Shown in pieces: positions 4,726 through 34,058 of a stretch of DNA of 64,000 bases. The notes beneath the pieces were generated by a model, which saw only the letters and a list, made by a program, of their open reading frames with translations, ran no database searches and was not told the DNA's origin. Numbering within the stretch: the stretch's first letter is position 1; each line of letters begins with the position of its first letter. This stretch comes from Tenacibaculum soleae (GTDB lineage: Bacteria > Bacteroidota > Bacteroidia > Flavobacteriales > Flavobacteriaceae), in contig NZ_MAKX01000035.1 in assembly GCF_001693415.1 (NCBI RefSeq), positions 790-64,789 on the forward strand, in the 5' to 3' direction. Made by a program: the position numbers and the translations under genes.

Positions 4726-4746
4726 CTATTTAAATTCATAAGAAAT

Positions 4747-4773
4747 AAAAAAACTCCTAAAAAAGGAGTTTTT
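4747..4773 (-). terminator. Rho-independent terminator of the NIF3/coiled-coil operon
   Basis: Inverted repeat AAAAACTCC / GGAGTTTTT (4749-4757 and 4765-4773). Read on the minus strand, the stem is followed by a T-run. It lies 24 bp after the stop of the minus-strand gene at 4797 and forms a back-to-back pair with the plus-strand terminator. Confidence 0.75.
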
Positions 4774-4796
4774 AAAATATGTTGTCGGAAAAAAAA

Positions 4797-5567
4797 TTAT
4801 ATAAATAAATTATCTATTTTTTCTTTTTCTTCTAGAGCTAAAGCAGCATCTACCAAAATACGACCACTATGTTCATCAATTGTAATTTTTTTACGATTAG
4901 CAATCTCTAACTGTACCTGAGGAGGTATTGTAAAGAAAGAACCTCCAGCAGCTCCACGTTCAATAGCTACTACAGCCAAACCATTTCTTACTTTGGTACG
5001 AATACGGTTGTAAGCTTTTAATAAATGATCATCGATAGATTTTGCGTATTCTTCAGACTTCTCTTTTAGTAACTGTTCTTCTTTCTCAGTCTCTTTTAAA
5101 ATAGCATCTAACTCATTTTTTTTATGCGTTAAATGATTTTCTTGCTGTTTTAATTTTTCTTTAGTAGCTTCAATAACTTCATTTTTCTGAGCTATTTTAA
5201 CTTTAAATTCTTTAATTCTTTTTTCAGATAATTGAATTTCTAATTCTTGAAATTCAACTTCTTTTGTTAAAGAATCAAATTCACGATTATTACGAACATT
5301 TTTTTGTTGTTCCTCGTACTTTTCAATTAATGCTTTAGATTCAGTGATAGCTAATTTTTTATTACTGATATCAGTATCTAAACTAGTAGATTCTTCTTTT
5401 AATTTAGATAATCTTGTGTTTAACCCGGCAACTTCATCTTCTAAATCTTCAACTTCTAAAGGTAATTCACCACGAACATTTCTGATTTCGTCAATTCTAG
5501 AATCGATTAACTGTAAATCGTATAACGCTCTTAACTTTTCTTCTACCGTTACTTCTTTTTTTGCCAT
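4797..5567 (-). CDS. Coiled-coil 'C4 zinc ribbon' family protein lacking its cysteines
   Basis: 256 aa. Residues ~5-180 are a long heptad-rich coiled coil. The C-terminal ~60 residues (NGLAVVAIERGAAGGSFFTIPPQ ... DEHSGRILVD) align in pattern with the C4-type zinc ribbon of the CT398/zf-RING_7 family (normally CGGC...IPPQ...C..CGRIL), but every cysteine is replaced (CGGC becomes AGGS, CxxC becomes DEHS) and the whole protein has no Cys. It is co-transcribed with the NIF3 gene, 3 bp upstream on the minus strand, a common pairing. The family role is unclear; links to secretion or nucleic-acid handling have been suggested. Cys loss argues that this lineage's fold does not need zinc. Confidence 0.85.
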   Translation of the reverse strand: MAKKEVTVEEKLRALYDLQLIDSRIDEIRNVRGELPLEVEDLEDEVAGLNTRLSKLKEESTSLDTDISNKKLAITESKALIEKYEEQQKNVRNNREFDSLTKEVEFQELEIQLSEKRIKEFKVKIAQKNEVIEATKEKLKQQENHLTHKKNELDAILKETEKEEQLLKEKSEEYAKSIDDHLLKAYNRIRTKVRNGLAVVAIERGAAGGSFFTIPPQVQLEIANRKKITIDEHSGRILVDAALALEEKEKIDNLFI

Positions 5568-5570
5568 CTG

Positions 5571-6665
5571 TTATATATAGTGTATTGGATTTGTACTTTT
5601 TTCACTTAAAATAATCGCAAAAGTACTAAATTTTTCACTAAGATAATCAAACAAAAGGTTTTTTGTAAACTGTTCACTTTCATAATGCCCAACATCAGCT
5701 AATAATATCTTTTTTTCGGCACTAAAAAACTCATGATATTTAAAATCAGCGCTTATATAAGCATCCGCTTTAGCTTTAATCGCATTTTTAATTGCAAAAC
5801 TTCCTGATCCTCCTAATACAGCAACTTTTTTAATTTTTTTATTGAGTAATTCAGAATGTCTAACACAATCAGTTTTAAATGTTTTTTTTACAAAAGATAA
5901 AAATTCTTTTTCATCCATAGTGTTTAAAAATTCGCCCATCATTCCCATTCCTATATTTTGATTAGAATTGTTAAGCGTTATAATTTCATAAGCAACTTCT
6001 TCATAAGAATGAAAATCAAACAAAGTTTTTAATATTTTGCCTTCTAAATAACTATCAAAAGTTACAGAAATAGAAGTTTCTTCAGTAAAAGTTATTTCAC
6101 CTTTTTGACCTATTGTTGGGTTCGAATTTTCATTGCCTCTATAGCTTCCTTTTCCATTAATATTAAAAGAGCAGTTATCATAATTACCAATGGTACCCGC
6201 TCCGGCTTCAAATAGTTTTTTTCGTAAATTTTCAGCTTCAGCAATCGGAACATACGTGGTAAGTTTTTTTATAATTCCTTTTTTAGGAATTAATGTTTTA
6301 CAGTTTTGTAAGCCTAAAACTTCACACATTTTAGCAGAAACACCATTGTTTACGTTATCTAAAGCTGTATGTGTAGCGTAAATAGCAATATTGTTTTGTA
6401 TTGCTTTTAAAACAACACGCTCTACATAATTATTACCGTTTATTTTTTTCAACCCACTAAAAACAATTGGGTGGAAGCTTACTATTAGATTACAGTTTTG
6501 TGCGATGGCTTCATCAACTGTTTCTTCTAAAGTGTCAAGCGTAACTAAAACTCCAGTTACTTTTGTGTTATAATCGCCTATTAATAAACCTACATTGTCA
6601 AAATCTTCAGCGTACGCAAGCGGAGCTAATTCTTCAATATAGTTAGTAACGTCTTTTATTTGCAT
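5571..6665 (-). CDS. NIF3-like dinuclear metal centre protein
   Basis: 364 aa, the long form of the family: two NIF3 halves flanked around a CutA-like insertion (roughly residues 130-230). Metal-ligand motifs are visible: SFHPIVFSG in the N-terminal half, ATHTALDN, and a late DVGHYESEQ. NIF3 proteins form toroidal hexamers with a di-metal site; GTP cyclohydrolase-like activity has been proposed, but the physiological substrate is unsettled. It heads the operon with the coiled-coil protein and is divergent from lpxK. Its -7 box lies at 6685-6692. Confidence 0.9.
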   Translation of the reverse strand: MQIKDVTNYIEELAPLAYAEDFDNVGLLIGDYNTKVTGVLVTLDTLEETVDEAIAQNCNLIVSFHPIVFSGLKKINGNNYVERVVLKAIQNNIAIYATHTALDNVNNGVSAKMCEVLGLQNCKTLIPKKGIIKKLTTYVPIAEAENLRKKLFEAGAGTIGNYDNCSFNINGKGSYRGNENSNPTIGQKGEITFTEETSISVTFDSYLEGKILKTLFDFHSYEEVAYEIITLNNSNQNIGMGMMGEFLNTMDEKEFLSFVKKTFKTDCVRHSELLNKKIKKVAVLGGSGSFAIKNAIKAKADAYISADFKYHEFFSAEKKILLADVGHYESEQFTKNLLFDYLSEKFSTFAIILSEKSTNPIHYI

Positions 6666-24194: not shown

Positions 24195-26084
24195 ATGGCA
24201 CCAAAAAGAAGTTTCGTTTTCGATTTTGATAGTACGTTAACAAGAGTTGAAGCATTAGATGTTTTAGCGGAGATTACTTTAGAAAAAAATCCGAAGAAAG
24301 AAGCCGTTATTAGAGAAATTGTCGAAATAACAAATCAAGGAATTGATGGAGAAATATCCTTTCCACAATCTTTAGAAAAACGCATTCAATTATTAAATGC
24401 TAAAAAGGCAGATTTACCAATTCTTATTACTGAATTAAAAAAACATGTTTCCTCATCTATCGAAAGAAATAAAGAGTTTTTTGAGCAGTTTTCTGATGAC
24501 ATTTATGTGATTTCAGCAGGATTTAAAGAATTTATAGATCCGATTGTGGCTGAATATAATATTCCATCCGAAAGAGTATTTGCTAACACTTTTCAATTTG
24601 ATGAAAACGATTTAATTGTTGGTTTTGATGCTAATAATTCACTCTCAAAACATAATGGAAAAATTGAATGTTTACAAAACTTAAACCTACAAGGAGAAAT
24701 ACAAGTAATTGGTGATGGATACAGTGACGCGGTAACAAAAAAAGCAGGTGTTGCTGATACTTTTTTTGCCTATACCGAAAATATATCTAGAGAAAAAACA
24801 GTAGCCAATGCTGATCATATTACACCTAATTTAGACGAATTTTTATACCTAAACGATTTGCCAAGAAATATATCATATCCAAAGAACAGAATTAAAATAT
24901 TATTATTAGAAAACGTACATGCCGATGCTTTTACAAAATTAACAGCCGATGGTTTTTCCGTTGAAACAATATCAAAAAGTTTATCAGAAGATGAGTTGAT
25001 AAAAAAAATTAAAGACGTACATGTTTTAGGTATTCGATCTAAGACTCAGGTAACTAAAAAGGTAATTGAAGCAGCAGAAAAATTAATGGTTGTTTCAGCA
25101 TTTTGTATAGGTACTAAACAAATTGATTTAGACGCTTGTAAAGAAAATGGAGTGGTAGTTTTTAACGCACCTTATAGTAATACGCGTTCTGTAGTTGAAT
25201 TAGCTATCGGAGAAATTATTATGTTAATGCGTAGTGTTTTTCAAAGAAGTACAGAATTGCATAATGGACAATGGAACAAAACAGCACAAGGTTCGCGTGA
25301 GGTTCGTGGGAAAAAACTGGGAATTGTTGGTTATGGAAACATAGGTAAACAACTATCAATTTTAGCAGAAGCTTTAGGGATGGATGTGTATTATTATGAT
25401 GTTGAAGATAAATTAGCGTTAGGAAATGCAACCAGAATTTCTACACTTAAAGAATTATTAAATATTTCTGATGTAGTAACCTTGCATGTTGATGATAACG
25501 CAGCAAATAAAAACTATATAGGGAAAGAAGAAATTTCACAAATGAAAGATGGCGTGCATTTTGTAAATCTTTCTCGTGGATTTGTAGTAGATATTGAAGC
25601 GCTGGTTGAGGGTTTAAAATCAGGTAAAATAGCAGGGTGTGCTATAGATGTTTATCCGGAAGAACCAAGAAAAAATGGTGATTTTATTACGCAATTAAAA
25701 GGTTTAGATAATGTGATTTTAACACCACATGTTGGTGGAAGTACAGAAGAAGCTCAAAAAGATATTGCCGATTTTGTACCTAATAAAATTATGGCATATA
25801 TAAATTCAGGAAATACAGTAGATGCAGTAAATTTTCCGAATATAAGATTGCCACGTCAAACAAATGCACATCGTTTTTTACATATTCATAAAAACGTACC
25901 AGGTGTAATGGCAAAAATTAATAAAGTTTTGGCTGAGTATGAATTAAATATTACAGGGCAATACTTATCAACAGATGCTAAAGTAGGGTATGTAATTACA
26001 GATATTGACAAAGAGTACAATCAGGAAGTGTTAAATGAACTTCGTAAGGTTGAAGGAACTATAAAATTTAGAGTACTTTATTAA
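24195..26084 (+). CDS. Fused phosphoserine phosphatase / D-3-phosphoglycerate dehydrogenase
   Basis: 629 aa from the ATG at 24195 (the upstream in-frame TTG is disfavoured). Residues ~1-220 are a HAD phosphatase of SerB type: FDFDSTLTRVEALD (DxDxT nucleophile motif), VISAGFKEF (motif II Ser) and GDGYSDAV (motif IV). Residues ~235-555 are SerA: GIRSKTQVT, the NAD site LGIVGYGNIGKQ, NLSRGFVVD, DVYPEEP and the catalytic TPHVGGSTEEAQ. A C-terminal ACT domain (~560-629, HKNVPGVMAKINKVL, INITGQYLST region) is typical for serine feedback. One polypeptide thus covers the first and last steps of serine synthesis from 3-phosphoglycerate; SerC is elsewhere. Confidence 0.92.
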   Translation: MAPKRSFVFDFDSTLTRVEALDVLAEITLEKNPKKEAVIREIVEITNQGIDGEISFPQSLEKRIQLLNAKKADLPILITELKKHVSSSIERNKEFFEQFSDDIYVISAGFKEFIDPIVAEYNIPSERVFANTFQFDENDLIVGFDANNSLSKHNGKIECLQNLNLQGEIQVIGDGYSDAVTKKAGVADTFFAYTENISREKTVANADHITPNLDEFLYLNDLPRNISYPKNRIKILLLENVHADAFTKLTADGFSVETISKSLSEDELIKKIKDVHVLGIRSKTQVTKKVIEAAEKLMVVSAFCIGTKQIDLDACKENGVVVFNAPYSNTRSVVELAIGEIIMLMRSVFQRSTELHNGQWNKTAQGSREVRGKKLGIVGYGNIGKQLSILAEALGMDVYYYDVEDKLALGNATRISTLKELLNISDVVTLHVDDNAANKNYIGKEEISQMKDGVHFVNLSRGFVVDIEALVEGLKSGKIAGCAIDVYPEEPRKNGDFITQLKGLDNVILTPHVGGSTEEAQKDIADFVPNKIMAYINSGNTVDAVNFPNIRLPRQTNAHRFLHIHKNVPGVMAKINKVLAEYELNITGQYLSTDAKVGYVITDIDKEYNQEVLNELRKVEGTIKFRVLY

Positions 26085-26109
26085 GAGTGCTTTAATGAAA
26101 GAGAATGAT

Positions 26110-26140
26110 AAAAGCCTTGTAAATTTTACAAGGCTTTTTT
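26110..26140. terminator. Bidirectional terminator between serB-serA fusion and iclR
   Basis: 13-bp perfect stem AAAAGCCTTGTAA / TTACAAGGCTTTT, 3-nt loop, T-run on the plus strand and A-run on the other side; the genes converge here. Confidence 0.85.
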
Positions 26141-26913
26141 TATAAAGAATTAAAATCTTGTAATGAATTTTCAATTAAGGTAGCTCCTTTTTGCAGAATA
26201 GATATATAGTTTTGTACGTTTTCTAATTTAAAGCGACTAGAAGGACCAGAAGCACTTATGCAGGCAATCGCATTTCCTTTTTTATTAAAAATAGGAATAG
26301 CTATACATATTAAACCTAATTCAAACTCTTCTAAATCTAAAGAATAGCCTTGTTTTTTTATGATGTTTAACGCTGTTTTTAATTTAGGAACTTTAGTAAT
26401 TGTTTTTTGAGTATATTTAGTGAAATTGTTGTTTTTAAAATATTTTTCTTGCTTTTCAATAGAAGAAAAAGCTAAAAGTAATTTACCTGATGCTGTTGCA
26501 TGAATTGGTTGATAAGAACCAATAGAGGTACTTATTTTTAAACCCTGTAAGCTATCAGCTTTATTTATGTAAAAAACTTGCTCTTCTTTTAAAATAGCAA
26601 GTAATATTGTTTCTTGTATTTCTAAAGCTACATTTTTAATAGATTGATTAGTCACTGTAATTAAAGATTGGTATAAAGAAACACGATTTCCTAATTCAAA
26701 AAGTTTACTGCCTAAACAATATTTTTCATTTTCATTCTGATGTATAACATTTAAAGAAACCAAAGTACTTAATAATCTATAGGTTGTACTCTTATTATAG
26801 CCTGTTTTATTCGCTAATTCACGAACACCCCATTCTTTTTTATCATTTGTAAAAGCATCTAAAACGGTAAACGCTTTTATAATTGATTGGTTTAAATTTT
26901 TGTTGTCAATCAT
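26140..26913 (-). CDS. IclR family transcriptional regulator
   Basis: 257 aa. N-terminal winged helix (IKAFTVLDAFTNDKKEWGVRELANKTGYNKSTTYRLLSTL) and C-terminal IclR effector domain (YQPIHATASGKLLLAF, GYSLDLEEFELGLICIAIPIFNKKGNAIACISASGPSSRF). It is divergent from the kynurenine cluster, with a perfect 17-bp palindrome between. IclR proteins often control aromatic catabolism next door, so control of this cluster by a kynurenine-pathway compound is a reasonable inference. Confidence 0.92.
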   Translation of the reverse strand: MIDNKNLNQSIIKAFTVLDAFTNDKKEWGVRELANKTGYNKSTTYRLLSTLVSLNVIHQNENEKYCLGSKLFELGNRVSLYQSLITVTNQSIKNVALEIQETILLAILKEEQVFYINKADSLQGLKISTSIGSYQPIHATASGKLLLAFSSIEKQEKYFKNNNFTKYTQKTITKVPKLKTALNIIKKQGYSLDLEEFELGLICIAIPIFNKKGNAIACISASGPSSRFKLENVQNYISILQKGATLIENSLQDFNSL

Positions 26914-26971
26914 TATTTTTTAAAAATCATTTTTGCTAATATAATAAAAAAGTGTAAATTTATAAAACACC

Positions 26972-26988
26972 GTTTCATTTAATGAAAC
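26972..26988. promoter_or_regulatory. Candidate IclR operator palindrome
   Basis: GTTTCATT-T-AATGAAAC, perfect 8+1+8 inverted repeat in the iclR/kynU divergent region. It sits upstream of a TTTG/TATCTTTA pair facing kynU (26999-27002, 27021-27028) and over the expected -33 of a near-consensus minus-strand box TAAATTTA (26955-26962) facing iclR, so it could autoregulate iclR and control kynU. Confidence 0.6.
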
Positions 26989-27067
26989 ACTTTTGTTTTT
27001 TGATTTGTTTATAAATCAAGTATCTTTAGTGTTTAAAAAGAAAGGTTTTTTTGAAATAAAAAGAAGC

Positions 27068-28327
27068 ATGTACAAAGCAACACTCGACTACGCACAACAA
27101 CAAGATAAAGAAGATAAATTAGCGCACTTGCGCAATCAATTTCATATACCAAAAGATAAAGAAGGTAATGAATGGTTGTACTTTACAGGGAATTCGCTTG
27201 GGTTACAACCTAAAAATACTCAAAAATATATTCAACAAGAATTAGATGATTGGGCTAATTACGGAGTAGAAGGGCATTTTGAAGGAAACACACCCTGGTT
27301 GCCTTACCATGAGTTTTTAACCGAGAGTATGGCGAAAATTGTAGGAGCAAAACCGCTAGAAGTTGTGGTGATGAATACGCTAACAACCAACTTACATTTG
27401 TTAATGGTGTCTTTTTATCAACCAACAAAAAAGAAATATAAAATAGTCATAGAATCTGATGCATTTCCTTCAGATAGATATGCCGTACAATCTCAATTAA
27501 AATTCCATGGATTTGATGTAGCAGACGGATTAATTGAATGGAAACCGAGAACGGGAGAAGAATTATTAAATATTGAAGATTTAGAAACAATTGTTGCTGA
27601 GCAAGGAGATGAAATAGCATTGCTATTGATAGGTGGCGTTAATTATTATACCGGTCAATATTTAGATTTAAAACGTATTGCTGAAATAGGACATTCAAAA
27701 GAATGTTTTGTAGGGATTGATTTAGCACACGGAGCAGGAAATATTTCTCCTAATTTACACGATTCAGGAGTAGATTTTGCAGCTTGGTGTACGTATAAAT
27801 ATTTAAATTCAGGCCCAGGAAGTTTAGGAGGATTATTTGTGCATGAAAAACATGCACATAATAAAGAGTTGCCACGTTTTGCAGGTTGGTGGAATCATAA
27901 TAAAGAAACGCGATTTAATATGCGTCAACCGTTCGATGTAATGACAGGGGCAGAAGGTTGGCAATTAAGTAATCCGCCAATATTATCCATGGCAGCAATT
28001 AAAGCTTCTTTAGATATGTTTGCTGAGGTAGGAATGGAAGCTTTACGAGAAAAATCAGAAAAACTAACAGGGTATTTCGAGTTCTTGATCAATCAAATAG
28101 ATTCTGATAGTATTAAGATTATTACACCATCTAATCCAAAAGAAAGAGGTTGTCAATTATCTATTCAAGTAAAAAATGCAGATAAAAGTTTGCATAAAAA
28201 ACTAACAGAAAATAATATTATTACCGATTGGAGAGAGCCAGATGTTATCCGTTGCGCACCAGTACCAATGTATACGAGTTTTGAAGATGTATATAAAATG
28301 GTTTCAGTTTTAAAAGGATTGTTGTAA
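27068..28327 (+). CDS. kynU: Kynureninase
   Basis: 419 aa from the ATG at 27068 (MYKATLDYAQQQDKEDKLAHLRNQF matches the family start). PLP enzyme splitting kynurenine or 3-hydroxykynurenine into (3-hydroxy)anthranilate and alanine. Seen: YFTGNSLGLQP, WANYGVEGHFEGNTPWLPYHE, MNTLTTNLH, FPSDRYAVQSQ, IDLAHGAGN and the PLP Lys in CTYKYLNSGPGS, then FAGWWNHN and FDVMTGAEGWQLSNPP. First gene of the catabolic cluster. A palindromic repeat lies 8 bp after its stop. Confidence 0.97.
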   Translation: MYKATLDYAQQQDKEDKLAHLRNQFHIPKDKEGNEWLYFTGNSLGLQPKNTQKYIQQELDDWANYGVEGHFEGNTPWLPYHEFLTESMAKIVGAKPLEVVVMNTLTTNLHLLMVSFYQPTKKKYKIVIESDAFPSDRYAVQSQLKFHGFDVADGLIEWKPRTGEELLNIEDLETIVAEQGDEIALLLIGGVNYYTGQYLDLKRIAEIGHSKECFVGIDLAHGAGNISPNLHDSGVDFAAWCTYKYLNSGPGSLGGLFVHEKHAHNKELPRFAGWWNHNKETRFNMRQPFDVMTGAEGWQLSNPPILSMAAIKASLDMFAEVGMEALREKSEKLTGYFEFLINQIDSDSIKIITPSNPKERGCQLSIQVKNADKSLHKKLTENNIITDWREPDVIRCAPVPMYTSFEDVYKMVSVLKGLL

Positions 28328-28334
28328 CAAAACC

Positions 28335-28367
28335 AAACCTCACAGGTTTTTAAAACCTGTGAGGTTT
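28335..28367. repeat. REP-like palindrome, copy 1
   Basis: Perfect 16+1+16 inverted repeat: AAACCTCACAGGTTTT, central T, then the exact reverse complement. Lies between kynU and kmo. Core arm ACCTCACAGGTTTT is shared by five copies in this cluster. Confidence 0.9.
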
Positions 28368-28380
28368 AATTTATCAAAAT

Positions 28381-29790
28381 ATGAATAAAAAAGATAACAT
28401 ACTAATAATAGGAGCTGGTTTATGTGGAAGTTTATTAGCTTTACGATTAGCACAAAGGGGGTATAAAGTTGAGGTTTTTGAAAGCAGACCAGATTTACGA
28501 ACTACGGATATTTCGGCAGGAAGATCAATAAATTTAGCATTGTCTGATCGCGGATTTAAAGCCTTACGTTTATGTGGTGTAGAAGAAAAAGCACGTGAAA
28601 TATGTATTCCGATGTATGGGCGTTTAATACATGATAGTAAAGGAAATACTTTTACTTCTAATTATTCAGGAAGAGAAGGAGAATACATAAATTCAATTTC
28701 TCGTGGCGATTTAAATGGTATTTTGTTAACTGAAGCCGAAAAGCATGAGAATGTAACTATTCATTTTAATAAGAAATGTAGTTCGGTAGATATAGAAAAG
28801 ATCATTGGACATTTTAAAGATTATAAAACCAAAGAAGAATTTTCTATAAATGCGGATGTAATTTTCGGAACAGATGGAGCTGGTTCGATATTGAGAAAAA
28901 GTTACTACTTAGAGAGAAAATTCTTATTTAGTTATTCGCAAAATTATCTATCACACGGTTATAAGGAATTAGAAATTCCTGCAGATGCCTTAGGGAATCA
29001 TCAAATAAGTAAAGAGCATTTACATATTTGGCCTCGTGGCGAGTATATGTTAATAGCATTGCCAAATATGGATGGAAGCTTTACTGTGACCTTATTTTTA
29101 AGTTATGATGAAGGAGAATATAACTTTAATAATTTAACATCTGAAGAAAAGATAACTTCATTTTTTGAAACACAATTTCCAGATGCTTTAGCGTTAATTC
29201 CGAGTATAAAAGATGAGTTTTTAAATAACCCAACAGGAGCATTAGGTACTGTAAAATGTTCGCCATGGCATTATCAAAACAAAACCATTTTAATGGGAGA
29301 TGCGGCACACGCTATTGTTCCGTTTTACGGACAAGGAATGAATGCTTCGTTTGAAGATATAACTGTTTTTGATGAAATCTTAAGTCATTTCGAGAGTAGT
29401 CGAGAAGTAGAAGATTGGGAAGCAGTTTTTAAAAGGTACGAGAAGGTAAGAAAAGAAGACACCGATGCTATTGCAGATTTAGCAATTGATAATTTTCATG
29501 AGATGAAAGATCATGTTGCTAATCCGATTTTTAAAGAAAAGCGAAAGTTAGAAATGACTTTGGAAGAGAATTTTCCTTCAGCATATTTTTCAAAATACTC
29601 GATGGTAACTTTCAATGAAAATATTCCTTATGCTGAAGCAATGAAAAAAGGAAGAGCACAAGATAAAGCGTTATTAAATATGGTTGCGCATCATGATTTA
29701 GATGCAATTACTGATTTAAAAGAAGTACTTAAAAAAGTACAAGAAGAAACAAACGAAATTTTAGAAGAGGATAAAATTGCAGGGATGTAA
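28381..29790 (+). CDS. kmo: Kynurenine 3-monooxygenase
   Basis: 469 aa FAD-dependent aromatic hydroxylase converting kynurenine to 3-hydroxykynurenine with NADPH and O2. N-terminal dinucleotide fold IIGAGLCGSLLALRLAQRGYKVEVFESRPD, the KMO-type AGRSINLALSDRGFKALR segment, GTDGAGSILRK, and the FAD-closing motif MGDAAHAIVPFYGQGMNASFEDI (GD...P). Length and motif order match bacterial KMO (~450-475 aa). Its stop is followed by palindrome copy 2 after 10 bp. Confidence 0.95.
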   Translation: MNKKDNILIIGAGLCGSLLALRLAQRGYKVEVFESRPDLRTTDISAGRSINLALSDRGFKALRLCGVEEKAREICIPMYGRLIHDSKGNTFTSNYSGREGEYINSISRGDLNGILLTEAEKHENVTIHFNKKCSSVDIEKIIGHFKDYKTKEEFSINADVIFGTDGAGSILRKSYYLERKFLFSYSQNYLSHGYKELEIPADALGNHQISKEHLHIWPRGEYMLIALPNMDGSFTVTLFLSYDEGEYNFNNLTSEEKITSFFETQFPDALALIPSIKDEFLNNPTGALGTVKCSPWHYQNKTILMGDAAHAIVPFYGQGMNASFEDITVFDEILSHFESSREVEDWEAVFKRYEKVRKEDTDAIADLAIDNFHEMKDHVANPIFKEKRKLEMTLEENFPSAYFSKYSMVTFNENIPYAEAMKKGRAQDKALLNMVAHHDLDAITDLKEVLKKVQEETNEILEEDKIAGM

Positions 29791-29800
29791 TGTGTAAAAT

Positions 29801-29829
29801 ACCTCACAGGTTTTTAAAACCTGTGTGGT
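29801..29829. repeat. REP-like palindrome, copy 2
   Basis: ACCTCACAGGTTTT, T, AAAACCTGTGTGGT: 14+1+14 with a single mismatch in the right arm. Between kmo and the DUF1697 gene, 13 bp before its ATG. Confidence 0.88.
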
Positions 29830-29842
29830 CTCAAAAATAAAT

Positions 29843-30376
29843 ATGAAAACATATATTGTTTTATTACGCGGAATTAATGTATCGGGAAAAAATAAACTCC
29901 CGATGGTTGAGCTACGTGAATTATTAAAAGGTTTAGGTTTTAAAAATGTTGAAACCTATATTCAGAGTGGTAATATTATTTTAAGTTCAGATAAAACAAA
30001 AGTTGAGGTTTGTAAAAAAGTAAATAAAGGAATTGCTGATAAGTTTGGTTATGATATTCCTGTGCTAGTAAGAACGCCACAAGAATGGACAGCGGTAATT
30101 GATAAATACCCTTTTTCAATAGAGAATGAAAAAATAGTTGCTTTTACTTTTTTAGATAAAACAACAAGTGAAACTGAAATTGAAATAAAAGGAATTAAAG
30201 AAGATCAATATAAAATAACGGGTGATGTAGTTTATTTAAACTGCCCATCAGGTTTCGGAAAAACAAAATTGACGAACAATACAATAGAGAAGAAATTAAA
30301 TTTAATCGCCACAACAAGAAATTATAAAACAACTTTAAAGTTATTAGAATTAGCGAAAGACCTCACAGGTTTTTAA
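29843..30376 (+). CDS. DUF1697 family protein with repeat-encoded C-terminus
   Basis: 177 aa from the ATG at 29843. Motifs MKTYIVLLRGINVSGKNKLPM, LRELLKGLGFKNVETYIQSGNIIL and NCPSGFGKTKLTNNTIEKKLNLIATTRNYKT are the DUF1697 (PF08002) signature. Function unknown. The last codons, DLTGF and the TAA stop (30361-30376), lie inside palindrome copy 3, so the natural C-terminus (around LLELAK) has been replaced by repeat sequence. It does not belong to the kynurenine chemistry and may have arrived with the repeats. Confidence 0.88.
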   Translation: MKTYIVLLRGINVSGKNKLPMVELRELLKGLGFKNVETYIQSGNIILSSDKTKVEVCKKVNKGIADKFGYDIPVLVRTPQEWTAVIDKYPFSIENEKIVAFTFLDKTTSETEIEIKGIKEDQYKITGDVVYLNCPSGFGKTKLTNNTIEKKLNLIATTRNYKTTLKLLELAKDLTGF

Positions 30377-30390
30377 AACCTGTGAGGTCT
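30358..30390. repeat. REP-like palindrome, copy 3
   Basis: Perfect 16+1+16: AGACCTCACAGGTTTT, T, then the exact reverse complement. It overlaps the 3' end of the DUF1697 gene and ends 13 bp before the transposase start. Confidence 0.92.
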
Positions 30391-30403
30391 ACACAATAAA
30401 TAG

Positions 30404-30973
30404 ATGAAATACGAAATCTTACAATCAAATAATTATTACCATATTTTCAATAAAGGAAATAATGGAGAAAATATCTTTATAGAAGATGTTAACTATATTT
30501 ATTTCTTAAAATTACTCAAAAAGTACGTAAATCCTATAGCTAATGTTTTATCGTATTGTTTATTAAAAAATCATTTTCATTTATTAGTTCAGATAAAAGA
30601 AGTAGCAGAAGAGAAAAAAGTATCTAAATCATTTTCTAACCTATTTAATTCATACTCAAAATCAATAAATAAGAAGTATAATAGAAGTGGTAGTTTATTT
30701 AGAGACCGATTTAAGAGAATTAAGGTTGAAGAAGAAGTCTATTTAAAAAAGTTAATAATTTATATAAATTTAAATCCAATTTATCATCAATTTGTAACGA
30801 GCTTAAATGATTATAAACACTCATCATATTTAAGTCTTATTTCAGAAAAAAGTACTTTATTAAAAAGAGAAGAAGTGCTGTTTTTATTTGAGAATAAAGA
30901 AAATTTTATACACCATTTAACTTACAAAAAATTGGAGTTTGATGAAAAATTGGCGGAATTAGTTTTAGAATAA
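30404..30973 (+). CDS. REP-associated tyrosine transposase (RAYT), Y1 HUH family
   Basis: 189 aa. IS200-type Y1_Tnp fold: N-terminal NNYYHIFNKGNNGENIF, VLSYCLLKNHFHLLVQ with the HUH pair H57/H59, and the C-terminal helix FNSYSKSINKKYNRSGSLFRDRFKR, whose Tyr84 is the predicted nucleophile (Y..x(4)N..xRxGxLFxxRF is the RAYT signature). Typical IS200 TnpA is ~150 aa; RAYTs are longer, as here. All catalytic residues are intact. Flanked by palindrome copies 3 and 4. RAYTs nick and join REP hairpin DNA; single-copy, non-self-mobile 'domesticated' behaviour is usual for the family. Confidence 0.88.
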   Translation: MKYEILQSNNYYHIFNKGNNGENIFIEDVNYIYFLKLLKKYVNPIANVLSYCLLKNHFHLLVQIKEVAEEKKVSKSFSNLFNSYSKSINKKYNRSGSLFRDRFKRIKVEEEVYLKKLIIYINLNPIYHQFVTSLNDYKHSSYLSLISEKSTLLKREEVLFLFENKENFIHHLTYKKLEFDEKLAELVLE

Positions 30974-30981
30974 TTAAATAT

Positions 30982-31014
30982 AGACCTCACAGGTTTTTAA
31001 AATCGATAAGGTCT
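30982..31014. repeat. REP-like palindrome, copy 4 (degenerate right arm)
   Basis: Left arm AGACCTCACAGGTTTT identical to copy 3; right arm AAAATCGATAAGGTCT has four changes from the complementary arm. Lies 8 bp after the RAYT stop and 16 bp before the RidA gene. Confidence 0.8.
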
Positions 31015-31030
31015 TTTAAGTAAAATAATT

Positions 31031-31429
31031 ATGGAGAAAAAAGTAACACCAAGAGGCGCATATCCACACGTAAAAGTTGTAGGAGATTTTATTTTTGTAT
31101 CGGGTACAAGTTCACGACGAGCAGATAATACGATTGCAGGAGTAGATATTATTGATGAAATGGGAACCAAACATTTAAATATCGAAACACAAACACGTGA
31201 GGTTTTACAAAACATAGATAAGAATTTACAAACAGTAGGAGCAAGTTTAAAAGATGTAGTTGATGTTTCTACGTTCTTAGTAAATATGAATGATTTTGCA
31301 GGCTATAATAAAATATATGCTGATTTTTTTGAAAAAGAAACTGGGCCAACACGTACAACAGTAGCAGTACATCAATTACCACACCCTGATTTAGTGGTAG
31401 AAATAAAAGTAACGGCTTATAAAAAATAA
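31031..31429 (+). CDS. RidA family protein, probable 2-aminomuconate deaminase
   Basis: 132 aa. RidA/YjgF fold: [59 protein letters not shown] and the C-terminal [27 protein letters not shown], with the conserved Arg and Glu. The context between KMO and the aldehyde dehydrogenase, with HAO and ACMSD nearby, points to the RidA-type 2-aminomuconate deaminase (AmnD/NbaF-like) that releases ammonia to form 4-oxalocrotonate. A general imine deaminase role is the alternative. Confidence 0.85.
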
Positions 31430-31442
31430 AAATAGAGGAAAA

Positions 31443-31471
31443 ACCTCACAGGTTTTTAAAACCTGTGAGGT
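31443..31471. repeat. REP-like palindrome, copy 5
   Basis: Perfect 14+1+14: ACCTCACAGGTTTT, T, AAAACCTGTGAGGT. Between the RidA and aldehyde dehydrogenase genes, 12 bp before the latter's ATG. Confidence 0.92.
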
Positions 31472-31483
31472 CTAGTATAGAGT

Positions 31484-32923
31484 ATGCATATAAAAAACTA
31501 CATAAACGGCGAATTTGTAAATCCAATAAATGGAAATTACATTGATAATTACAATCCTTCAATAGGAGAAGTGTATGGTCAAATTCCTAATTCATCAAAA
31601 GAAGATGTTGAGTTGGCATATAATGCTGCCAAATCTGCCTTTAGGCAGTGGTCAGAAACAACCTTAGACCAAAGAAGTAAAATATTATCGAAGATTGCGG
31701 AATTAATAAAAGAGAAATTATCTTTTTTAGCAGAAGCAGAATCTAAAGACAACGGAAAGCCAATTAGTTTAGCCAAACAGATTGATATACCAAGAGCAGC
31801 AAGTAATTTTCAGTTTTTTGCAAATGCCATTACGCAGTTTTCATCAGAAGCACATGAAAGTGTTGGTTTAAATGCGATGAATTTCACTTTGCGACAACCA
31901 ATTGGTGTGGTAGGTTGTATTTCTCCGTGGAATTTACCGCTGTATTTATTTACATGGAAAATTGCTCCGGCAATTGCAGCAGGAAACTGTGTGGTAGCAA
32001 AACCAAGTGAAGTAACACCAATGACAGCTTATTTATTAGGAGAAATCTGTAATGAGGCAGGCTTACCAAAAGGAGTTTTAAATATTGTTCACGGTTTAGG
32101 AGGATCAACAGGACAAGCAATTGTAGCACACCCGAATATTAAAGCAATTTCATTTACTGGAGGAACAACTACTGGAGCACATATTGCACGAGTAGCAGCG
32201 CCAATGTTTAAGAAGTTATCTTTAGAGTTAGGAGGGAAGAACCCTAATTTAATTTTTGCAGATTGCGATTACGATAAAATGTTAGCAACCACAGTTAGAT
32301 CTTCATTTGCAAATCAAGGTCAGATTTGTTTATGTGGAAGTAGAATTTTTGTGGAAGAAAAAATATATGAACGATTTAAAAAAGATTTCGTTCAAAAAGT
32401 ATCTGAATTAAAAGTTGGAAATCCAGCAAATAGCGATACAAATATTGGAGCTTTAGTGTCTAAACAGCATTTAGAAAAAGTAAAAAGTTATATAGATATT
32501 TCTGAACAAGAAGGCGGTAAGATTCTTTTTGGAGGCAAAACTGTGACTGTAACCGACAGTGAAAATGGTTATTATTTACAACCCACAATAATTGAAGTAA
32601 CGGATAATAAATGTCGATTGAATCAAGAAGAGATTTTTGGACCTGTTGTTACTATTATGCCTTTTAAAACAGATGAAGAAGCATTAGCATTAGCAAATGA
32701 TGTAAAATACGGATTGTCAGCAACGTTGTGGACAAATAATCTAAACAGAACTATGCAAATATCAAAACAAGTTCATGCAGGAATTGTTTGGGTAAACACA
32801 TGGTTATTAAGAGATTTAAGAACTCCGTTTGGAGGGCAAAAAGAAAGTGGTGTAGGACGCGAAGGAGGTTTTGAGGCATTGCGCTTTTTTACCGAACCTA
32901 AAAATATTTGTATTAAATATTAA
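31484..32923 (+). CDS. Aldehyde dehydrogenase, probable 2-aminomuconate semialdehyde dehydrogenase
   Basis: 479 aa NAD-dependent ALDH. Seen: GCISPWNLPLYLFTWKIAPAIAAGN, AKPSEVTPMTAYLL, ISFTGGTTTGAHI, the active-site LELGGKNPNLIF, the catalytic Cys in FANQGQICLCGSRIF, and EEIFGPVVTIMPF. The pattern is closest to the AMSDH/hydroxymuconic semialdehyde group (AmnC/NbaE, ALDH8A1). With ACMSD in the same cluster, oxidation of 2-aminomuconate 6-semialdehyde to 2-aminomuconate is the expected step. Confidence 0.92.
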   Translation: MHIKNYINGEFVNPINGNYIDNYNPSIGEVYGQIPNSSKEDVELAYNAAKSAFRQWSETTLDQRSKILSKIAELIKEKLSFLAEAESKDNGKPISLAKQIDIPRAASNFQFFANAITQFSSEAHESVGLNAMNFTLRQPIGVVGCISPWNLPLYLFTWKIAPAIAAGNCVVAKPSEVTPMTAYLLGEICNEAGLPKGVLNIVHGLGGSTGQAIVAHPNIKAISFTGGTTTGAHIARVAAPMFKKLSLELGGKNPNLIFADCDYDKMLATTVRSSFANQGQICLCGSRIFVEEKIYERFKKDFVQKVSELKVGNPANSDTNIGALVSKQHLEKVKSYIDISEQEGGKILFGGKTVTVTDSENGYYLQPTIIEVTDNKCRLNQEEIFGPVVTIMPFKTDEEALALANDVKYGLSATLWTNNLNRTMQISKQVHAGIVWVNTWLLRDLRTPFGGQKESGVGREGGFEALRFFTEPKNICIKY

Positions 32924-32936
32924 AAGATTAAATAAT

Positions 32937-32983
32937 GTCAGTTCGAGTGATTTTGAGGAACGAAAAATTGTATCGAGAACTAA
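32937..32983. repeat. Second intergenic hairpin family (TTCGAGTG/ATCGAGAA), copy 1
   Basis: GTCAGTTCGAGTGATTTT ... AAAAATTGTATCGAGAACT: an imperfect inverted repeat filling the gap between the aldehyde dehydrogenase and the 73-aa gene. A similar unit (AATTCGAGTGTTTTATTTT ... AAAATGTATCGAGAA) recurs at 34271-34325 within another element. Confidence 0.7.
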
Positions 32984-32989
32984 ATAAAA

Positions 32990-33211
32990 ATGATGAATAA
33001 AGAAATACGACAAAAAATAATTGAAGTTTGTAACGAGAAAATTGCAAAAAAAGGAGATAATGTAGGTTTGTCTTTCTACGCATTTTTCAAGAATAAAAAT
33101 GACAATCCGAAGCTGTTAATGGAAGTCGCAAAATGGTGGATTGAAACTCATCAGTTAGATCATTTTGAAAAAGCAGTAAAGATTAAAGCAATGATTTTAG
33201 AAAATAAATAA
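32990..33211 (+). CDS. Small protein, DUF6500-like
   Basis: 73 aa; start is the first of two adjacent ATG codons (32990 or 32993). Sequence features: helical N-terminus (IRQKIIEVCNEKIAKKGDNVGLSFYAFF), then KNDNPKLLMEVAKWWIETHQLDHFEKAVKIKAMI. From memory this resembles a small DUF (DUF6500) found with catabolic genes; I cannot confirm it. No catalytic motif. Within the kynurenine cluster, its role is unknown. Confidence 0.65.
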   Translation: MMNKEIRQKIIEVCNEKIAKKGDNVGLSFYAFFKNKNDNPKLLMEVAKWWIETHQLDHFEKAVKIKAMILENK

Positions 33212-33230
33212 GAACCTAGAGAAAAGAATC

Positions 33231-33274
33231 AAGAAAAAAGATGTAAAAATCTTTCTTCTAACATCTTTTTTCTT
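33231..33274. repeat. Intergenic stem-loop between the 73-aa gene and the SDR gene
   Basis: Perfect 14-bp arms AAGAAAAAAGATGT (33231-33244) and ACATCTTTTTTCTT (33261-33274), 16-nt loop. Another palindromic insert at a gene junction; it could also act as an attenuator. Confidence 0.7.
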
Positions 33275-33287
33275 TCATCCATAAATT

Positions 33288-34058
33288 ATGAATTTAAACA
33301 TACAAAATAAAAACGCCTTGGTTTGTGGAAGCACGCAAGGAATAGGAAAAGCATCGGCAATTGGTTTGGCACAAGAAGGTGTAAACGTAACGTTGATTGC
33401 TCGTAACGAAGAAAAGTTAAAAGCTGTTTTAACTGAATTACCAGAAGGGAATCACAGTTATATTGTTGCCGATTTTTCAAATCCGAATGAATTAAAAGAA
33501 AAAATTGAAGCATCAAAATTAAACTTTCATATTTTAGTTAATAACACAGGAGGTCCTGCAGGAGGTCCTATTTTTAACGCCGAAATAGATGAGTTTGAAC
33601 GCGCTTTTACACAACATTTAAAATGCAATCACGTATTGGTACAAGCAGTGGTTCCGTTTATGAAAGAAGCAGGTTTTGGAAGGGTAATTAACGTAATTTC
33701 TACTTCTGTAAAACAACCTTTAGAGGGTTTGGGAGTTTCAAATACCATTCGTGGTGCAGTTGCAAGTTGGTCTAAAACATTGGCAAACGAGCTAGGGCAA
33801 TTTAATATCACCGTAAATAATGTATTGCCAGGAGCTACAGGAACAGAAAGATTAAAAGAAATTATAAACAATAAGGCAGCAAAAACAGGATTGTCTGTTG
33901 ATGAGGTTTCAACAAATATGATGAATGCTTCGCCAGCAAAACGTTTTGCGAAACCAGAAGAGATTGCCAATGCAGTGGTTTTTTTAGCAAGTGAAAGTGC
34001 AAGCTTTATTAATGGGATTAATGTTCCTGTTGACGGAGGAAGAACTAAGAGTTTGTAA
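33288..34058 (+). CDS. Atypical SDR family oxidoreductase in the kynurenine cluster
   Basis: 256 aa. Cofactor loop CGSTQGIGKASAIG, NNTGGPAGG, catalytic-position Ser (INVISTSVKQ) and the C-terminal NVPVDGGRTKSL. The Y-x3-K position reads GVSNTIRGAV, so Tyr and Lys are replaced by Ser and Arg. This SN-x-x-R pattern is seen in an SDR subgroup usually annotated as 3-oxoacyl-ACP reductase. Its step in kynurenine or oxalocrotonate catabolism is unclear; it may act as a non-redox or altered-mechanism member. Confidence 0.85.
   Translation: MNLNIQNKNALVCGSTQGIGKASAIGLAQEGVNVTLIARNEEKLKAVLTELPEGNHSYIVADFSNPNELKEKIEASKLNFHILVNNTGGPAGGPIFNAEIDEFERAFTQHLKCNHVLVQAVVPFMKEAGFGRVINVISTSVKQPLEGLGVSNTIRGAVASWSKTLANELGQFNITVNNVLPGATGTERLKEIINNKAAKTGLSVDEVSTNMMNASPAKRFAKPEEIANAVVFLASESASFINGINVPVDGGRTKSL

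Follow-up and report, generated by a model that had tools for sequence, protein, structure and literature searches.

A RAYT gene and its probable GTAG-free palindrome partners in the kynurenine operon of Tenacibaculum soleae and in other flavobacteria

The kynurenine operon of Tenacibaculum soleae (assembly GCF_001693415.1) contains, in order, kynU, kmo, a DUF1697 gene, a gene for a Y1 HUH transposase, a RidA gene, and an aldehyde dehydrogenase gene, and a short palindrome is present at each junction between them. This operon is part of a stretch of 64,000 nt, here called the window (contig NZ_MAKX01000035.1, positions 790 to 64,789, forward strand). The transposase resembles the repetitive extragenic palindrome (REP)-associated tyrosine transposases (RAYTs). 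The RAYT-REP partnership is best known from gammaproteobacteria. Here, we compare the window with related genomes and present evidence that the RAYT and the palindromes very probably form a RAYT-REP system of Flavobacteriia. Features are listed in Table 1; handles beginning with G and L denote genomes and loci, respectively.

The palindrome is approximately 33 nt long, with the layout AGACCTCACAGG-TTTT-T-AAAA-CCTGTGAGGTCT. All five sites (28337, 29801, 30360, 30984, and 31443) carry an exact left arm, ACCTCACAGGTTTT. Three of them also have an exact right arm; the right arm at 29816-29829 deviates by one mismatch, and the site at 30984 has lost its right arm and continues AAAATCGATAAGGTC. The window tally is three perfect copies, one near-perfect copy, and one half copy. 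The original prediction, made from the sequence of the window, had described five near-identical palindromes at the first five junctions of the operon, all with the same central base. The five sites, their locations, and the shared base (T on the plus strand in 5/5 copies) were borne out, but the copy at 30984 lacks its right arm. We observed 9 matches to the arm in the window at up to 2 mismatches, compared with 0.53 expected, and none of 100 shuffled sequences had as many, so chance is excluded. The 3.0-Mb genome of T. soleae contains 12 palindrome sites at up to 3 mismatches, and a control pattern read backwards gave 0 sites there. Nine of the 12 are exact (three on contig 1, three on contig 12, and three in the window). 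These palindromes are solo or in tandem, with no inverted pairs. At one location (C12:274803-275517; L004-L006), a 343-base unit is present in tandem triplicate, with one exact palindrome per unit.

Table 1. Palindrome copies and RAYT gene in the kynurenine operon of T. soleae (positions in the window)
Feature	Position	Strand	Remarks
Palindrome copy 1, kynU/kmo junction	28335..28367	.	Perfect, T center on +
Palindrome copy 2, kmo/DUF1697 junction	29799..29831	.	One arm mismatch
Palindrome copy 3, DUF1697/RAYT junction, left end of RAYT unit	30358..30390	.	Gives DUF1697 a new end (DLTGF + stop)
RAYT, Y1 HUH transposase, 189 aa	30404..30973	+	H57/H59, predicted catalytic Y120 in YINLNP
Palindrome copy 4, RAYT/RidA junction, right end of RAYT unit	30982..31014	.	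Decayed in the right arm, left arm retained; the T. haliotis copy is perfect
Palindrome copy 5, RidA/aldehyde dehydrogenase junction	31441..31473	.	29-base core perfect

The RAYT gene is genuine: Y1_Tnp (E = 2e-5) is the sole Pfam domain in its product, which is also the only Y1_Tnp match in the T. soleae genome at E ≤ 0.001. Its closest named relative, at 95% identity, is in Tenacibaculum haliotis. An alignment of 79 sequences shows no variation at H57, H59, and Y120, whereas Y84 is nearly invariant. Profile alignment with Escherichia coli RayT matched the two histidines to HMH and Y120 to the YIYINP tyrosine, which we take to be the catalytic Y115 of that enzyme. Because Y120 is invariant and aligns with this tyrosine, we predict that the catalytic residue is Y120 and not Y84. 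The H57/H59/Y84 active site proposed originally was therefore right in its histidines, and in calling the gene a Y1 transposase, but not in its tyrosine. An AlphaFold model of the protein (pLDDT 92.5) gave as its best match in the Protein Data Bank (PDB) the E. coli TnpA-REP in complex with a REP hairpin (4er8; E = 4.9e-8), followed by the IS608 and ISDra2 transposases. A PDB search with the sequence only returned just weak, unrelated matches (E of 0.45 and above). The clade to which the protein belongs has the motifs NHFH, LF (in SLFRDRF), and YI[HN]LNP, with 64 residues from the N of NHFH to the Y; two serines, S140 and S141, follow the core. Matched genomes contain one to three RAYT-family matches, with just one in 20 of 27. 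A defense or phage gene was rejected, as no PADLOC or PHROGs match was found at E ≤ 0.01.

If the palindromes are linked to the RAYT, they should be found near its relatives. Of 80 loci retrieved with RAYT relatives, 78 have an open frame of at least 150 aa. In 74 of these 78 loci, a palindrome is located no more than 160 bp from the RAYT, compared with 37 of 289 nonadjacent control open reading frames (ORFs) from the same loci that have one this close. Palindromes on both sides were found at 52/78 RAYTs, compared with 5/289 control ORFs. Three of the four remaining loci (L109, L110, and L132) have palindromes with larger loops; none is listed for L084. Among further loci of the genus group, a palindrome is near the RAYT in 26 of 29.

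Co-occurrence across genomes, which had been suggested as a check along with the original prediction, agreed with this result in both sets examined. In the genus group (116 genomes; pattern with up to 2 mismatches), 17 of the 19 genomes with an intact short RAYT have at least three copies, compared with 15 of the 97 others (p = 7e-10), and as many as 36 palindromes are found per genome. Fewer than three copies were found in the other 82 of the 97. The two exceptions among the 19 are G077, with another palindrome type, and G056, in which the flanking palindrome has the same core with GTCTT inside. Among the 97 genomes without an intact short RAYT, five have a broken RAYT copy and three have only a long relative. 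In the family set (249 genomes, 235 genera; up to 1 mismatch), at least three copies are present in 12 of 41 genomes with a RAYT, compared with 2 of 208 without (p = 6e-9), and at least one copy in 16/41 compared with 10/208. For the related CCTAACAGG type, at least one copy is present in 7/41 and 6/208, respectively (p = 0.002).

The palindromes beside RAYT genes are clade specific, with types CCTCACAGG, CCTAACAGG, CCTCAAAGG, CCTGTCAGG, CCTACGAGG, CCCTGCCAGCG, and others. The letters that vary between clades are mainly those in the middle of the ACCTnnnAGGT found in each arm. The feet are mostly AGACC/GGTCT or AAACC/GGTTT, with TAT in many Flavobacterium loci; the CCTAACAGG type is found in many such loci, often as inverted pairs with TAT at both feet. 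None of the palindromes listed for RAYT loci has a GT[AG]G foot beside it, as the original prediction had noted of the classic GTAG-type tetranucleotide in the window. We labeled 93 rows of a tree of 100 RAYT proteins, from which the distant relatives L287 and L288 were excluded, with 12 palindrome labels. The labels require 12 changes on this tree (the minimum is 11), compared with a mean of 41.1 in 200 label shuffles, none of which was as low. Four of the 12 labels occur in at least two rows and eight in a single row, and the three large types alone require 3 changes. Some single-row labels (CCTTACAGG, CCTTACGGG, and CCCCAAAGG) may be point-mutated copies. G077, which has an intact RAYT, contains 0 copies of the window palindrome, and G038, in which the RAYT is interrupted, contains 1; the RAYT genes of these two genomes are flanked instead by CCCTAACAGGG or CCTAACAGGG. 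Three genomes (G106, G026, and G013) each contain two short RAYTs with a different palindrome beside each, one of the G013 RAYTs being interrupted. Judged from these sequences, each RAYT type appears to have its own palindrome type.

No palindrome is located inside any of the 100 RAYT genes in the tree. Palindromes within the gene were seen in the excluded relatives (L287, at 1752; L288, at 1806), in which the stretch from HUH to Y is longer (86-90 residues). A group of proteins of ~490-515 aa (L033, L036, L037, L281, L282, L284, and L285) has a RAYT-like N terminus (NH[FY]H ... Y[IV]HKNP), and palindromes of other types (CCTGTCAGG, CCTGCAAGG, CCTACAAGG, and CCTTCAAGG) are near six of these seven.

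Comparison of the operon between species revealed junctions both with and without these elements. At the kmo/DUF1697 junction, G022, G003, G017, G004, and G043 have a tight boundary, T. soleae a palindrome, and T. haliotis an imperfect copy of it. The DUF1697/RidA junction consists of a few bases in G099 and is occupied by palindrome-RAYT-palindrome in T. soleae, T. haliotis, and G047; the right palindrome of this RAYT unit has decayed in T. soleae and G047. When aligned with the empty junction of G099, the left end of the unit coincides with the palindrome, which in T. soleae supplies the stop codon of DUF1697. G051 has a broken RAYT behind a decayed palindrome at nearly the same left junction. 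In Tenacibaculum agarivorans, an uncultured Tenacibaculum (L078), and G012, palindrome-RAYT-palindrome is instead located between kmo and DUF1697, and in Tenacibaculum finnmarkense it directly follows kmo. The RAYT unit is thus found at two different operon junctions, and relatives show each without the unit. Even G081, with a Kmo 97% identical to that of the window, has neither the RAYT nor the window palindrome at its operon. Outside the operon, four more T. soleae sites are common to T. haliotis (L001, L002, L003, and L011, the last degenerate in both). Some RAYT-less relatives may have decayed copies at the L003 site, judging by eye.

Other variation was seen at the same junctions. In G081 (L184), kynU, kmo, DUF1697, and aldehyde dehydrogenase share 96-99% identity with the window but RidA (5405-5794) shares only 65%, a difference that suggests a local exchange of genes near the RAYT junction. 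A second palindromic repeat family, CTCGAGCGCAGTCGAGAGG, is present at kynU/kmo and sometimes kmo/DUF1697 junctions (L156, L166, L173, and L175) and in L184 around 4740-4810. Gene ends in the genus also repeatedly carry a longer inverted-repeat element, GAAGCTATTTCCTGCTTT ... AATCAGGGCTAA; it follows kmo in L163, L178, L180, and L182 (with a variant in L181) and is also in the flanks of L001 and L002.

The enrichment of copies between genes that the original prediction had proposed to look for is pronounced. We sampled 100 stretches of ~20 kb from eight single-contig genomes, mostly picked around copies, and found 69 of 70 palindromes outside ORFs, where the noncoding share is 21%. By a second criterion, applied to 70 exact copies whose central base is A or T, none is intragenic, and the median distance to the nearest gene is 19 bp.

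When orientation was defined by the strand with T at the palindrome center, the copies of several genomes fell into two chromosomal blocks. The window is G-rich on the plus strand in 8/8 bins, the strand on which all five of its copies have T. The G-rich strand is the lagging-strand template of the replication fork. In four genomes with enough sequence, in which we fitted replication arms from GC skew alone, T is on the G-rich strand in 32 of 37 copies; this test is exploratory, as the pattern was spotted by eye beforehand, copies may share descent, and G036 has a weak skew. We rejected the idea that gene direction alone determines orientation because all 11 copies in gaps between convergent genes, counted from the four-genome listing, follow the replication arm. 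Gene direction nevertheless also correlates with orientation, and the two causes are incompletely separated: 20 of 26 copies between codirectional genes follow gene direction, and where both flanking genes oppose the leading strand the count is 5 to 4. Across the eight genomes, orientation matches local GC skew in 54/70 copies, the local gene-strand majority in 51/70, and codirectional flanking genes in 40/55. Single-strand transposition on the lagging-strand template would be expected to produce such replication-arm polarity.

As single-stranded DNA, the palindrome is predicted to form a 15-bp hairpin (-15.9 kcal/mol). Half of it alone forms a weak hairpin of 4-6 bp (-1.7 to -3.7 kcal/mol). 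Across 26 arm types, hand-picked for diversity, the half-arm pairing ACCT-nnn-AGGT is retained in 92.9% of cells, compared with 74.4% in the best slid register, and 9 cells changed on both sides, compared with 3.4 in shuffles. In the same test, the numbers of pairs changed on both sides (2, of six) and of pair types (4) were not above those in shuffles.

Because the palindromes adjoin the RAYT, co-occur with it, co-diverge with its tree, occupy sites that are unfilled in relatives, and are placed between genes, we link the two. The evidence supports the original prediction of a Bacteroidota RAYT-REP system: very probably, this is such a system of Flavobacteriia, in which palindromes without a GTAG foot would be the RAYT substrates. 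The RAYT would be a low-copy, domesticated Y1 HUH nuclease that, in the clade of the window RAYT, would have been inherited along with the kynurenine operon. On an exposed single strand, most likely the lagging-strand template, the palindrome would fold into a hairpin of ~15 bp; the RAYT would recognize this hairpin, cut beside it with Y120, and join it elsewhere, and palindrome copies would accumulate in intergenic gaps as a result. Each RAYT clade would be paired to its own palindrome, with the variable letters mainly in the middle of ACCTnnnAGGT. We infer binding, cutting, mobility, copying as opposed to moving, and the strand used from the comparisons above.

Several observations weigh against this interpretation. 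The palindrome is missing near the RAYT in three of the 29 further genus-group loci (L032, L039, and L040; L039 has AT-only hairpins), and in the family set it was found in 25 of 30 loci and is missing in 5. The window type is absent from 25 of the 41 family genomes with a RAYT, and the RAYT-less genomes include the 10 of 208 with at least one copy. Eleven genomes have at least three copies and no RAYT match: G009 (20 copies), G053 (19), G067 (13), and eight with 3-9. In a profile search of these eleven, distant Y1 proteins were the only matches, and they came from four of the genomes. The original prediction had named genomes with many palindromes and no RAYT of the clade as counting against it, and a few genomes, G009, G053, and G067 among them, are of this kind. 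Loss of the RAYT after the palindromes had spread is the likeliest reason; the copies in G009 and G053 are exact, hence not decayed, so the loss there would have to be recent. In addition, the genus-group pattern also picks up some sibling types such as CCTCAAAGG, and the sample has one genome per species, so the comparison is between species and none is within. Finally, the RAYT scores 47.8 bits against the NCBI model for REP-associated transposases (NF047646), which has a cutoff of 80.

Alternatively, the palindromes could be the terminal inverted repeats (TIRs) of a TIRYT- or TIRtron-type insertion sequence that moves as a whole unit, with solo copies as its remnants. The left end of the unit coincides with a palindrome against the empty G099 junction, and two operon junctions are occupied in two sets of relatives, as this explanation would have it; further, TIRYTs have been described as Y1 genes whose flanking repeats are not GTAG REPs (PMC3733652, from 2013). 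However, 20/27 matched genomes have one RAYT-family match, with up to 36 palindromes in a genome, and each palindrome is self-complementary in itself. Copies are also found elsewhere without a RAYT, the palindromes are clade specific, like REPs, and the published TIR motif GGGGWSAS is absent from the palindromes listed. We consider movement of a whole unit unlikely.

A host function, with the palindromes as terminators, attenuators, or mRNA-stabilizing hairpins and the RAYT merely among them, would account for the strength of the hairpins and for their proximity to gene ends. Yet copies are present between codirectional genes of an operon, and the operon has 3 terminator-like sites compared with 3.8 expected, one of which is copy 2 on the minus strand. 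With no excess of such sites and no Rfam match in 26000-34000, we rejected the terminator reading. A host function would also leave unexplained the change of palindrome type from one RAYT clade to another and the low counts in most genomes without an intact RAYT, and it is highly improbable. Least probable of all is that the clade RAYT is a bystander and the palindromes are mobilized by a different Y1 protein, for instance the FWQ/YIHQNP type of G009 (L196): palindrome-rich RAYT-less genomes exist and G009 does encode a distant Y1 protein, but no such palindrome is within 350 bp of it (G067, G034, and most G006 proteins being unresolved in this respect), the palindrome type tracks the tree of the window RAYT clade, and T. 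soleae has no other Y1_Tnp match.

The RAYT-REP reading that we prefer matters because work on these systems, in the literature available to us, rests mainly on gammaproteobacteria with GTAG as a guide, and this clade is in another phylum. It offers a natural set of matched enzymes and palindromes that differ in few letters, with which GTAG-free recognition, and the question of whether RAYTs really spread their own palindromes, are directly testable. Should further genomes show the replication-arm polarity too, it would provide in vivo evidence that a single strand, the lagging-strand template, is acted on. More tentatively, this RAYT family might dispense with the GTAG guide and read a short variable code. 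ACCT-nnn-AGGT is retained in nearly every arm, which would make each palindrome half a small hairpin with a middle triplet that varies between RAYT clades and is matched to its partner, and the enzyme would act on one strand of the fork with a fixed polarity per arm; we regard this as possible but doubtful. If true, matched pairs of triplet and RAYT could be swapped in single-strand DNA insertion.

In the literature searched, we recognized no report of a flavobacterial RAYT-palindrome pairing, and text matches to the palindrome letters look unrelated by title. Flavobacterium genomes with thousands of REP-like sequences have been described in a paper whose accessible text does not mention RAYTs (PMC12306157). 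The accessible part of PMC3116915 contains nothing on Bacteroidetes, and PMC2817692 has no occurrence of the terms sought; recognition of GTAG is the subject of PMC8266576, as far as its accessible text goes. In the available sections of Quentin et al. 2018 (PMC6006769), five RAYT subclasses (2.2, 2.4, 2.5, 2.7, and 2.8) are reported to have canonical GT[AG]G REPs, the Bacteroidetes subclass 2.6 and class 3 to have atypical structures, and subclasses 2.1 and 2.3 to have none.

The system described here resembles the RAYT/TnpA-REP systems of E. coli, Pseudomonas, and Stenotrophomonas in its Y1 HUH fold, for which 4er8 is the best match, and in a low-copy gene flanked by a palindrome that is dispersed between genes and forms cognate pairs with it. 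It differs in having no GT[AG]G foot, in a near-perfect palindrome with mostly a 1-3 nt loop, in few copies (12 in T. soleae), which in that genome are solo or tandem and not inverted pairs, and in LF..RF, which replaces WQ or WE. With the IS200/IS605 elements IS608 and ISDra2 it shares the HUH-Y1 fold, hairpin substrates, and replication-strand polarity. Here, however, the neighbors are DUF1697 and RidA and not tnpB, and palindromes are also found alone. A multicopy mobile tnpA of the IS200/IS605 kind was rejected, given one Y1_Tnp match in T. soleae and 1-3 matches per matched relative.

Subclass 2.6, in the published text available, is likewise from Bacteroidetes and has atypical flanking structures without GTAG and copies elsewhere in the genome. 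Its motifs are NH[LIV]H, WQ, and YIH[QN]NP, with a 21-aa insertion, whereas the window clade has NHFH, LF, and YI[HN]LNP and no insertion, and proteins with subclass 2.6 motifs have 84-85 residues from N to Y compared with 64 here. Membership in subclass 2.6 was rejected on the motifs and the insertion. A distinct Y1 type in G009 (L196) and G045 (L200), with FWQ and YIH[QN]NP, fits this published subclass. The motif line of subclass 2.1, which includes TIRYTs (NH[YF]H, FQ, and Y[IV]HLNP, in the same partial source), comes nearest to that of the window RAYT, and both have serines after the core; NHFH and YI[HN]LNP fit, SLFRDRF matches only the F of FQ, and subclass 2.1 is reported to have a C-terminal helix-turn-helix/DnaA-like domain and no REP-like sequences, while the RAYT here has 189 aa and consistent palindromes. 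For subclass 2.4 (NH[IFV]H, WQ, YIxNNP, a variable insert with intragenic REPs, and GT[AG]G), the length and NHFH fit, but WQ and GT[AG]G are absent here. By its sequence, the protein appears to fit no published RAYT subclass fully. It would belong to a palindrome-linked clade outside the assignments given in the available text of Quentin et al. 2018, unless members have been filed there under subclass 2.6 or 2.4.

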